A model generated the notes under the pieces. That model saw only the letters and a list, made by a program, of their open reading frames with translations, was not told where the DNA came from and ran no database searches. Source: Hydrogenovibrio crunogenus (lineage in GTDB: Bacteria > Pseudomonadota > Gammaproteobacteria > Thiomicrospirales > Thiomicrospiraceae). From it: DNA of 64,000 bases. Each line of letters opens with the position of its first letter. Position 1 is the first letter of the stretch. Below are positions 16,367 to 22,677 of this stretch, piece after piece. A program made the position numbers and the translations under genes. The stretch is taken from NCBI RefSeq assembly GCF_004786015.1, contig NZ_CP032096.1:744001-808000 (forward strand). The letters run 5' to 3'.

Positions 16367-16733
16367 AGAAAATACCGCCCTTTATATTAAGTTCTTTTAT
16401 ACGTATTTTAAATTATAATTTATTGTCGTTTTTGAAGTGGAAACTTTTTAATATTGATTAACCACGTTTTTGTTTAAGTTTTTGATGTCGTGTTTTTACG
16501 TTATTACTCATTGTTTTTTATACAAAAATTGATAGTAGTTAAAAAGTGAGAGGAAAAAGTAAATATTGCTGTTAGTTTTGATAAAGTCTAATGGAACCGC
16601 AAAGTAGGCATTTGTTTGAATGGTTATCAACGATTGTATTGTTAAAGGCTGAAGAATCACGGGCAATGATTATGAATATTATCTTTTTTTCTTTATGGTT
16701 TAATCCATTCACACTTGATTAAAGGGCTTTTAA
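16367..16733. other. Divergent AT-rich intergenic region
   Basis: 367 bases between the chemoreceptor (leftward) and the metal ATPase (rightward). Very AT-rich with several T-runs; no gene-sized frame. I see no convincing sigma-54 or sigma-28 promoter for the receptor. The one element of note is the Fur-like site listed separately. Confidence 0.6.
16665..16683 (+). promoter_or_regulatory. Possible Fur-like box upstream of metal ATPase
   Basis: The 19 bases beginning AATGATTATGAAT match the classical Fur consensus at 13 of 19 positions and end in ATTATC. It lies about 50 bases before the ATPase GTG start. In such AT-rich DNA a chance match is quite possible, so this is only suggestive. Confidence 0.3.
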
Positions 16734-19013
16734 GTGCATCTATTAAAACATGTAATTTTACTGTGGGTGTTTTTAACAACGCTATTCGGTGTGGTAGCGC
16801 TTTATGCTTTTGATGAAGCGAACTTGGCCGATAAAGTCTGGATTATCGGCGCTATCCCAATTTTCATTTGGGTGGTCTGGGATATCATAAAAAGTCTACA
16901 CTATAAAAAAATCGGTGTGGATGTTATAGCAGCCCTCGCAATTGCCGGTGCTTTTCTGTTAACGGAATACCTTGCAGCAGCCGTTATTACACTTATGTAT
17001 GCCAGTGGGCAATCGCTAGAGCAATATGCCGCCAACCGTGCCAAGCAGGAATTGACCAAATTACTCAGTCGAGTGCCAACAATGGCGGATTGTTATGTGG
17101 ATGGAACCATAAAAAGTGTCCCGGTTGCAGAGCTTCAACCGGGAGATCGGCTGATGATTAAAACAGGTGCCGTGCTGCCTGTTGATGGTTATGTTTCAGG
17201 TGGTCCTGCAATACTCGATGAGTCTTCTTTAACAGGAGAATCACTTCCCGTGACACATGCCGAAGGGCAAGCCGCCAGCAGTGGTACGCTGAATATGGGA
17301 CAGCCTTTTGATTTAATAACGGTGCATGATGCTGCTAACAGTGCTTATGCAGGAATTATTCGCCTTGTGCAGGAAGCACAAAAGGGCAAAGCGCCTTTTA
17401 CCCGCATGGCTGATCGTTATGCTTTATGGTTCATTCCCTTAACACTAATGGTGGCAGGGGGAGCTTGGTTGTTTTCCGGAGATCCTGTCAGGGCGCTAGC
17501 CGTTTTGGTGGTGGCAACGCCTTGCCCTCTGATTCTCGCAGCACCAATTGCGATGGTCGCAGGCATATCTACCGCAGCTCGACAAGGTTTGTTGATTAAG
17601 AATGGCGCAGCACTGGAAGCTTTGGCTAACAGTGAACGGATTATTTTAGATAAAACTGGAACTTTAACGACGGGAAATCCACGGTTACTTGATATTAAGT
17701 CGGATGGCCGTTTAACTTATGAAGACATTCTCCAGTTGGCTGCTTCTCTGGAACAAGCCTCTTTCCATGTGGTTTCAAATGCGATTGTCGAGTCTGCTAA
17801 ACAGCGGAATATAGCTCTCTTAATACCAAAACAGGTTAAAGATGTCGCTGGAAAAGGCGTGCAGGGAATGTTGAATAATCAACAGATCATGATTGGTCAA
17901 CCTTCATGGGTGCTGGACTCAATGCAAACGCCTACCTCTGATTGGGTGGTTTCATTGCTTAAACGCTCCAGTCATAACGGTCAAATGCTATTGCTGTTAT
18001 CTGTAGACCATCAGGTTCGCGGCGCTCTGATTTTGCAAGACGAAATCCGTACTGATGCTCCGAGAGCTTTAAGAAGTCTTCGAGCTTCGGGCGTCCAAAG
18101 CCTTTCAATGGCCAGTGGTGATCAAGTTGAGATTGCAAAAAGTATCGGTCACGTTCTCGGGATGGATCACGTTTATGCAGGGCTTCATCCTGGTGATAAA
18201 GTAAAGATTATTCGTCAGGAACGCCAGCAAGGCACCACAATGATGGTGGGAGATGGTGTTAATGACGCGCCAGCGCTGGCCACCGCTGATATTGGGGTTG
18301 CAATGGGAGCAGAAGGCGCGGGGGCGAGTTCAGAGGCCGCAGATGCTGTATTAATGGTTGAACGGATTGATGTGCTAGCCGATGGGGTGCAAATTGCTAG
18401 GCGCAGTCAAGCAATTGCCAAACAAAGTGTGGTGGTGGGGATGACGTTGTCCTTGATTGCCATGCTGTTTGCTGCATTTGGGTATCTTACCCCCTTGGTT
18501 GGAGCACTGCTGCAAGAAGGGATTGATGTATTAGTCATTATTAATGCGCTTCGAGCGTTGCGTTTTCCTGTAACGCATGACAGTATTCTGAATGTTGAGC
18601 AACAAGAAAAACTGCAAAAACAGCATGCTGACTTACAGCCTACGCTCGATCAAATGCGTCAACTGGCAGACCGTTTAGCCAGCCATCAACAAGTGACGGC
18701 TGAAGAAATAGCTGAATTAGCACGTTTGATTGAACAAAAACTGATACCACATGAACAAATAGATGAACGAAAGCTACATCCTGAGTTGGCCCATAAAATG
18801 GTGGGGAATGATCCAATGGCCATGTTAAGTCGAACTCATGGAGAAATTCTTCAGTTATGTAATCAATATTTGTCGCTGGTGAATCAACCGCGGGACGAAC
18901 ATCAACGCAATGCTATGATTGGCGTGCTTTATGGGTTGGAAGCTATTTTAAAATTGCACTTTGCTCAAGAAGATGAGTTGTATTCTTTGTTGGCCAATAA
19001 TTACCAAGCCTAG
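16734..19013 (+). CDS. P1B-type heavy-metal ATPase with C-terminal hemerythrin-like tail
   Basis: 759-residue metal pump. Actuator TGES at 167-170, membrane metal motif TPCPL at 262-266, phosphorylation site DKTGT at 306-310 and hinge GDGVNDAP at 506-513 are intact. There is no N-terminal CxxC metal domain. The usual nucleotide-domain His-Pro dipeptide reads His-Val (H345-V346). After the last membrane helix a helical tail of about 150 residues has spaced His/Glu/Asp (H673, H702, H742, E746, D747), like a hemerythrin/HHE di-iron domain. TPC plus a hemerythrin tail is the hallmark of the P1B-5 subgroup, linked to Fe/Ni/Co. Start is GTG; metal specificity is inferred. Confidence 0.87.
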   Translation: MHLLKHVILLWVFLTTLFGVVALYAFDEANLADKVWIIGAIPIFIWVVWDIIKSLHYKKIGVDVIAALAIAGAFLLTEYLAAAVITLMYASGQSLEQYAANRAKQELTKLLSRVPTMADCYVDGTIKSVPVAELQPGDRLMIKTGAVLPVDGYVSGGPAILDESSLTGESLPVTHAEGQAASSGTLNMGQPFDLITVHDAANSAYAGIIRLVQEAQKGKAPFTRMADRYALWFIPLTLMVAGGAWLFSGDPVRALAVLVVATPCPLILAAPIAMVAGISTAARQGLLIKNGAALEALANSERIILDKTGTLTTGNPRLLDIKSDGRLTYEDILQLAASLEQASFHVVSNAIVESAKQRNIALLIPKQVKDVAGKGVQGMLNNQQIMIGQPSWVLDSMQTPTSDWVVSLLKRSSHNGQMLLLLSVDHQVRGALILQDEIRTDAPRALRSLRASGVQSLSMASGDQVEIAKSIGHVLGMDHVYAGLHPGDKVKIIRQERQQGTTMMVGDGVNDAPALATADIGVAMGAEGAGASSEAADAVLMVERIDVLADGVQIARRSQAIAKQSVVVGMTLSLIAMLFAAFGYLTPLVGALLQEGIDVLVIINALRALRFPVTHDSILNVEQQEKLQKQHADLQPTLDQMRQLADRLASHQQVTAEEIAELARLIEQKLIPHEQIDERKLHPELAHKMVGNDPMAMLSRTHGEILQLCNQYLSLVNQPRDEHQRNAMIGVLYGLEAILKLHFAQEDELYSLLANNYQA

Positions 19014-19134: not shown

Positions 19135-19210
19135 TGGGGCGAATGACGGGGATCGAACCCGCGACAACAGGAATCACAATCCTGGGCTCTACCAACTGAG
19201 CTACATCCGC
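19135..19210 (-). tRNA. tRNA-His (GTG)
   Basis: Full cloverleaf on the minus strand with anticodon GTG in GATTGTGATTC, TTCGATCC in the T arm and encoded CCA. Residue 73 is C and the base at 19211 reads G, giving the G(-1):C73 pair diagnostic of tRNA-His. Third gene of a three-tRNA operon. Confidence 0.97.
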
Positions 19211-19238
19211 CATAGTGGTGTGAAAGACATACCGTAAA

Positions 19239-19315
19239 TGGCACGCCCATCAGGATTCGAACCTGAAACCCTCGCCTTAGAAGGGCGATGCTCTATCCAG
19301 TTGAGCTATGGGCGC
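19239..19315 (-). tRNA. tRNA-Arg (TCT)
   Basis: 77-base cloverleaf on the minus strand starting GCGCCCATAGCTCAACTGGA, anticodon TCT in CCTTCTAAG, T arm GGTTCGAATCC and encoded CCA. Middle gene of the operon, 28 bases upstream of tRNA-His. Confidence 0.97.
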
Positions 19316-19376
19316 TCTATCGAACCTCTCGATACCGTGTTGATAGACAATCAATAAGCATCAACAAGATAAAAAT

Positions 19377-19453
19377 TGGTCGGAGTAGAGGGATTTGAAC
19401 CCCCGACCACCTGTACCCAAAACAGGTGCGCTACCAAACTGCGCTATACTCCG
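19377..19453 (-). tRNA. tRNA-Pro (TGG)
   Basis: 77-base cloverleaf on the minus strand starting CGGAGTATAGCGCAGTTTGG, anticodon TGG in GTTTTGGGTAC, T arm GGTTCAAATCC and encoded CCA. First gene behind the promoter at 19468-19496. Confidence 0.97.
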
Positions 19454-19496: not shown

Positions 19497-19605
19497 TAAC
19501 TAAAATTCGCTTTTATTAAAAATTTTTTGCTCTGAGTTTTGTTACACGGAAATCGAAATCAGTTATCATATCGCGTATTCCGTGACTTTTAATAAGGATA
19601 TCAAT

Positions 19606-21581: not shown

Positions 21582-22677
21582 ATGGAATTAAATCCAATTT
21601 ACACCCAAATCAAAGATTTTACTGAGCGCACCGAAGTGCTTAGGGGGTATCTTTGACTATGATACCAAGCAAGAACGATTGGTTGAAGTTGAACGCGAAT
21701 TAGAAGACCCTAGTGTTTGGAATGAACCGGAGCGTGCACAAGCCTTAGGAAAAGAAAAATCTCAACTCGATAATGTGGTGACCACCATTCAGGACTTGGA
21801 GAGCAGTCTGGAGTCGGCACATGAGATTTTGGAAATGGCGGAAATGGATGCCGATCAGGAAATGGTCGATGAAGTGGTGTCTGAGTTGGCGCGTTTGGAA
21901 GAAAAGCTGGAGCAACTTGAATTTCAACGTATGTTTTCCGGTGAATTGGATGCCAATAACTGTTATTTAGAGATTCAATCTGGCTCAGGTGGCACCGAAG
22001 CGCAGGACTGGGCGAATATGATCCTTCGTATGTATTTGCGCTGGGCGGAAAGTCATGGCTTTAAGGCTGAGATTTTAGAAATATCGGCCGGAGATGTGGC
22101 TGGTATCAAAGGAGCTACCGTTCATGTGCAAGGCGATTATGCTTTCGGTTGGTTAAGAACGGAAACCGGGGTACACCGTCTGGTACGTAAGTCACCATTT
22201 GATTCCGGGAATCGACGTCATACCTCATTTGCATCGGTTTTCATTTCGCCAGAAATTGATGACAGTTTTGAAGTCGAAATCAATCCAGCTGATTTACGCA
22301 TCGATGTGTATCGTGCCAGTGGTGCGGGTGGGCAGCATGTCAACAAAACCGAATCGGCGGTACGGATTACGCATTTACCAACCAATACGGTGACACAGTG
22401 TCAAAACGGTCGTTCTCAGCATCAAAACAAGGCTGAAGCAATGAAGCAGTTACGTGCCAAGTTATATGAGCTGGAAATGTTGAGCCGCAACGCTGAGAAA
22501 CAAGAAATGGAAGAAAATAAGTCGGACATTGGCTGGGGAAGTCAGATCCGTTCTTACGTGCTGGATTCCGGACGGATTAAAGATTTACGTACCAACGTCG
22601 AAACCGGTAACACCAATGGCGTATTGGATGGGGATTTGGATCAGTTTATCATCCCTAGTTTAAAGGCCGGTGTCTAA
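21582..22677 (+). CDS. prfB: Peptide chain release factor 2, programmed +1 frameshift
   Basis: Recognises UGA and UAA stop codons and releases peptides. The 24-codon first frame from ATG 21582 ends CTT TGA (21651-21656). A Shine-Dalgarno-like AGGGGG lies just upstream, and slipping from CTT onto TTT continues as GAC TAT in the +1 frame. This is the conserved autoregulatory frameshift: low RF2 favours slippage. The joined product is 364 residues, matching RF2. The anticodon-like SPF (KSPFDSG) and catalytic GGQ (AGGQHVNKT) are present. Confidence 0.96.

Follow-up and report, generated by a model that had tools for sequence, protein, structure and literature searches.

What does the P-type ATPase gene at positions 16734 to 19013 of the window (the whole stretch of Hydrogenovibrio crunogenus DNA analysed here, 64,000 nucleotides) export, what does its hemerythrin-like C-terminal tail do, and is the His-Val in its nucleotide domain, where His-Pro is usual, a sign of damage? 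Few P1B-5 pumps with hemerythrin-like tails have been studied, and the available part of a 2022 review describes the role of the domain in these pumps as unclear (PMC9388753). The gene starts with GTG, runs for 759 codons, and contains the following features.

16734..19013, plus strand: P1B-5-type metal-transporting P-type ATPase with C-terminal HHE domain, 759 aa (ORF, profiles, tree, model)
16721..16726, plus strand: putative ribosome-binding site aaaggg, 7 nt 5' of the GTG (sequence reading)
17517..17531, plus strand: TPCPL membrane motif, candidate metal site (residues 262-266)
17649..17663, plus strand: DKTGT phosphorylation motif (residues 306-310)
17760..17771, plus strand: S-F-H-V at the usual Ser-x-His-Pro position (residues 343-346; His345 invariant in alignment A3)
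18513..18527, plus strand: QEGID in the last membrane helix (residues 594-598; Q594, E595, I597 and D598 invariant in A3)
18594..18995, plus strand: C-terminal four-helix hemerythrin/HHE domain (residues 621-754)

The product has the hallmarks of a P1B-type ATPase, namely an actuator, DKTGT and GDGxND motifs, and a match to the heavy-metal P-type subfamily profile (NCBIfam TIGR01525; 519.9 bits against a cut-off of 346). Pfam matches comprised E1-E2_ATPase (PF00122; residues 114-284, E 1.6e-44), Hydrolase (PF00702; residues 303-519, E 3.8e-22), and Hemerythrin (PF01814, IPR012312; residues 625-750, E 3.5e-10, 40.9 bits against a cut-off of 25.3), and included no HMA or N-terminal metal domain, whose absence the earlier note had reported. 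The tail is the sole PF01814 match at E ≤ 0.001 in the H. crunogenus genome. When the whole pump was compared with solved structures using phmmer, the top matches were other kinds of pump, with the Zn ATPase 4umv first.

Subgroup membership was evaluated from motifs and phylogeny. The metal-site helix carries TPCP (residues 262-265) and not CPC or SPCA, and the last membrane helix carries QExxD at the position where, in the alignment, SPCA pumps have HEGS/T; TPCP is the label of P1B-5 pumps and QExxD their defining motif, the latter judged partly from our alignment. In a tree of 57 rows, 18 of them outgroup pumps and with L054, L131, L153 and L153b omitted, the H. crunogenus pump and three orthologues from the same family grouped together (support 100/100). 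The clade that also contains the Nia row (L036) comprised 35 rows, 32 with hemerythrin tails and three without (support 99/97), within a wider clade of 41 TPCP/SPCP pumps (support 100/99). Motifs and clade together place the H. crunogenus pump, as a predicted protein, in the P1B-5 group proposed for it in the earlier note; it is one more example of a small, already described group of pumps. Its nearest complete relatives are the three proteins from its own family (66, 65, and 62% identity), and a fourth, L131, is ended by a contig edge and is 66% identical over its own length. The three tail-less TPCP pumps nest among hemerythrin-tailed ones, which suggests that the tail may have been lost in them. 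Two Lactobacillaceae pumps (L049 and L051) have SPCP and QExxD, lack the HHE tail, and fall inside the TPCP clade. Lactobacillus has a P-type manganese transporter, and against this background L049 and L051 are possible manganese transporters.

The earlier note had singled out the His-Val pair as an altered His-Pro motif. The pair is indeed present (residues 345-346), but nothing about it is peculiar to this protein, as proline follows the nucleotide-domain histidine in none of the 34 hemerythrin-tailed pumps (Val 28, Ala 3, Ile 1, Leu 1, Thr 1). This count includes the H. crunogenus pump and the split pump L153; L054, whose frame ends before the tail and which also has His-Val, was kept out of the counts. 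Because proline is missing throughout the group, His-Val is ordinary for it, the wording "altered motif" misleads, and a special alteration in this pump can be ruled out; the pair is a group trait and not damage. Among seven tail-less TPCP pumps, proline and valine occupy the position in four and three cases, respectively, and among 25 further P1B pumps of relatives in which the motif can be recognised, proline, serine, and alanine occur 11, 11, and 3 times. A general dispensability of the proline is disfavoured by its presence in 15 of the 18 outgroup pumps of the tree, three of which (L006, L017, and L020) are shared with the set of 25. The histidine itself is kept in all listed rows.

The domain search and structure prediction that the earlier note had suggested for the tail bore out its four-helix character: in addition to the Hemerythrin match, AlphaFold2 predicts helices at residues 621-649, 656-688, 694-716, and 722-754, with a candidate ligand group in each. 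The model of the whole pump, built with 27 sequences, had a mean pLDDT of 83.7 and a pTM of 0.71, and the tail modelled alone reached a mean pLDDT of 93.2. Eight further predicted helices (2-26, 29-56, 63-75, 79-112, 224-248, 251-283, which is broken, 545-581, and 587-609) are membrane-like in our reading of the model, and a hydropathy scan recovers seven of them. With the whole model as Foldseek query, the best 50 matches listed were all P-type ATPases; with the tail model there were no matches with E < 0.001, and FBXL5 (3v5x) ranked 43. Against solved structures, the tail scored highest with 3cax (Z 12.9) and 2p0n (Z 12.7), both of which we take to be HHE-domain proteins, followed by the p130Cas bundle 3t6g_D (Z 12.6); 3cax is also a profile match to the tail (E 0.044). 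Since unrelated four-helix bundles score almost equally (12.6 against 12.9), fold comparison alone is no proof of a di-iron domain, and the case for a putative HHE domain is carried by the sequence profile and the candidate ligands listed below.

18624..18626, plus strand: candidate iron ligand H631, helix A (31/31 tails)
18750..18764, plus strand: candidate iron ligands H673, E674 and D677, helix B (H and E 31/31; at position 677, 25 tails have D and 6 have E)
18837..18845, plus strand: candidate iron ligands H702 and E704, helix C (31/31 each)
18957..18971, plus strand: candidate iron ligands H742 and E746, helix D (31/31 each)

These positions were read from alignment A4, which holds 31 tails including that of H. 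crunogenus, with identity to the latter as low as 24%; the plasmid rows L036-L038 are absent from A3 and A4, and so stand outside the count of 31, and their ligands agree. The invariance of seven candidate ligands at such low identity argues for a maintained metal site, and the hemerythrin-like tail first noticed by eye thus comes with a complete candidate ligand set. Q745 is likewise invariant in all 31 tails. The set H - HExx(D/E) - HxE - HxxxE matches the pattern H-HxxxE-H-HxxxE of HHE di-iron domains when D is allowed at 677, a pattern given for BRUTUS in the available text of PMC12022348. It is common to the HHE domains of BRUTUS, FBXL5, and YtfE and to the pump tail, with Asp or Glu at the second acidic position of the tail. 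Unlike those proteins, the pump tail is fused to a P-type ATPase, has mostly Asp as the first acid of the pattern, and contains the additional invariant residues E674 and E704. A profile of the tail aligned weakly with YtfE (E 0.007), such that H631, H673, D677, and H702 correspond to His84, His129, Glu133, and His160, which we take to be crystallographic iron ligands; His105 of YtfE, presumably also an iron ligand, has no counterpart of the tail opposite it in this alignment. The five-His motif of oxygen-carrying hemerythrin, quoted in the accessible part of PMC9388753 as H-HxxxE-HxxxH-HxxxxD, does not occur in the 31 tails, which have only four conserved histidines, with HxE in helix C and no conserved HxxxH. 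The same portion of that review gives the P1B-5 tail motif as H-HxxxE-HxE-HxxxxD, whereas the last acid is that of HxxxE in all 31 tails, the next position being D in 7, N in 4, and E in 20. The ligand set read from our alignment is tighter than the motif quoted in that portion of the review, and can be tested. His682 (18777-18779) occupies a position that is Tyr or Phe in most tails; histidine occurs there in 5 of the 31 tails, all from the family of the H. crunogenus pump, and could be an extra ligand near the candidate di-iron site.

The pump closely resembles a named system. A protein encoded at 637505-639784 of pSymA shares 44% identity with it over 99% of the query, and by position we take this protein to be Sinorhizobium meliloti Nia (SMa1163), the record being without annotation there. 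Like the H. crunogenus pump, Nia has TPCP, QExxD, and S-x-H-V, lacks an N-terminal metal domain, and carries a hemerythrin/HHE tail with the same ligands; it differs in having Tyr in place of His682, and the H. crunogenus gene differs in being solitary and beside tRNA genes. According to the accessible portion of PMC4932525, Nia is induced by Fe2+ and Ni2+ and a nia mutant accumulated nickel and iron, while deletion of nia in another strain left tolerance to Cu, Zn, Cd, Pb, and Ni unchanged, iron being outside the list of metals given. The Acidothermus cellulolyticus P1B-5 ATPase A0LQU2 has the same domain order, as far as the description in the available part of a review allows comparison (PMC9388753).

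Genome context was examined for clues to regulation, and involves the following features.

16662..16686, no strand assigned: Fur-box-like stretch in overlapping registers, up to 14/19, 48-72 nt before the start codon (consensus match)
19135-19453, minus strand: tRNA-His, tRNA-Arg and tRNA-Pro in a row, directly behind the pump gene

The pump gene is solitary, with a divergent MCP-type chemotaxis gene upstream and the tRNA genes and folD beyond (MCP and folD are names from our own reading of the translations), and no metal-homeostasis gene adjoins it among these neighbours. The genome encodes one Fur homologue, as well as SoxB (731 bits against a cut-off of 550), in keeping with the description of the source organism as a sulfur oxidiser in the earlier note. 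Six consensus patterns were scanned upstream, two of them for Fur. The 367-bp intergenic region contains five Fur matches of at least 13/19, a number equalled in 4 of 2000 first-order Markov simulations, and its best match (14/19) was equalled in 64 of 2000. As six patterns were tried, and the best single matches to the two Fur patterns were equalled in 14 and 46 of 200 mononucleotide shuffles, the figure of 4/2000 is optimistic. The window as a whole has 29 Fur matches of at least 13/19, and four of its five matches of 14/19 lie elsewhere than upstream of the pump. The Fur-like site is not shared by the three nearest complete orthologues, upstream of which matches were at chance in L034 (200/200 shuffles) and L035 (181/200) and reached 13/19 in L033 (51/200). 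Given the number of patterns tried and the lack of sharing by orthologues, the cluster at 16662-16686 is a weak hint of a candidate Fur site. Sites for NsrR, FNR, NikR, and Irr upstream of the pump are unproven, being equalled in 44, 107, 187, and 33 of 200 mononucleotide shuffles, respectively. A sigma-70 promoter scan found 6 sites against 6.5 expected, and terminator-like sites numbered 9 against 3.5 expected, eight inside the pump gene and the other at 19571-19585.

In our judgement the protein is probably an Fe(II)/Ni(II) exporter of the Nia type, whose HHE tail would bind two irons and modulate the pump. From the gene, its domain order, motifs, fold prediction, invariant ligands, and kinship, we infer metal identity, transport direction, iron occupancy, and tail-pump coupling as follows. 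Fe(II), along with Ni(II) and perhaps Co(II), would be bound in the membrane via Cys264 and QExxD; Asp306 of DKTGT would be phosphorylated by ATP, and the ion would exit the cytoplasm. The four-helix tail would hold two irons in its His- and carboxylate-rich site and, as a switch beside the last membrane helix, would probably tune pump activity or stability to the iron or redox state of the cytoplasm. Iron or oxygen sensing by the tail, as raised in the earlier note, is a plausible candidate role. A more specific version, in which the tail is an on-protein iron/redox gauge gating a pump for Fe(II) efflux that is additionally under Fur control in H. crunogenus and has an NO or low-oxygen role in relatives, strikes us as doubtful; if true, it would be a bacterial counterpart of FBXL5-type iron sensing that acts directly on the transporter.

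The tail of the same pump could instead mainly answer O2 or NO, with the pump taking part in a low-oxygen or NO response and removing iron set free by damaged Fe-S clusters. In the congeneric genome G010 (L033, 9115-15558), the orthologue adjoins two genes for NsrR-like Rrf2 regulators, which score below NCBI's NsrR cut-off and above that of the Rrf2 superfamily, and a gene for an NO-inducible flavohemoprotein above cut-off, which suggests an NO-response neighbourhood. Universal-stress-protein genes occur at 9 of 32 hemerythrin-pump loci (L036, L037, L045, L143, L144, L147, L154, L155, and L161; two of the nine from one genome) and at one of the 63 control loci, which carry other P1B pumps, although six of the nine loci (all but L045, L147, and L155) had themselves supplied the seeds, picked by eye, for the profile, and the controls came from other taxa. 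FNR-type boxes lie in the stretch from 350 nt upstream to 150 nt downstream of the start at 3 of 32 hemerythrin-pump loci against 0.46 expected, and the HHE relatives include YtfE, named as an Fe-S cluster repair protein. These contexts suggest low-oxygen or stress use in other members of the pump group and not at the H. crunogenus locus (L032), where there is no universal-stress-protein match, no FNR box, and an NsrR match at chance (44/200 shuffles); the tail also has no five-His motif of the oxygen-carrier type, and an O2- or NO-answering tail is to our mind unlikely here.

Somewhat less likely again is a tail without regulatory influence on the pump, which would be a store or scavenger of iron or else a structural relic. 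The nesting of three tail-less TPCP pumps within the hemerythrin-tailed group indicates that the pump core can apparently work without a tail, while the invariance of seven candidate ligands in 31/31 tails, at identities down to 24%, weighs against this view. We consider it improbable that Mn(II), Co(II), or some other divalent metal is what the pump moves and that the tail is an iron-dependent metal-balance switch: QExxD does accompany SPCP in place of TPCP in the two Lactobacillaceae pumps inside the clade, but both lack the HHE tail and begin the motif with another residue, and the nearest characterised protein, Nia, is reported for Ni and Fe in the available text of PMC4932525.

Hemerythrin-tailed pumps are patchily distributed. 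Counting the H. crunogenus genome, the tail match was found in 5 of 62 genomes of the family and in at least 9 of 398 sampled genomes of the phylum, and it was found in at least 15 of 297 genomes of one order; the phylum and order counts are lower bounds, as 8 or 11 candidates were scored per large genome. Related loci were sought using two generic ATPase motifs, and consequently most of the 80 loci are other P1B pumps. In genome G502 (L153, 3498-5787), two reading frames, of 603 and 259 aa, together make up the pump ORF, reflecting either a broken gene or an assembly error. Downstream of the pump in the H. crunogenus window, AGGGGGTATCTTTGAC (within 21640-21680) stands just 5' of a release-factor-2-like ORF at 21679 and resembles a programmed +1 frameshift site; we take the ORF to be prfB and AGGGGGTATCTTTGAC to be its usual programmed +1 frameshift motif.
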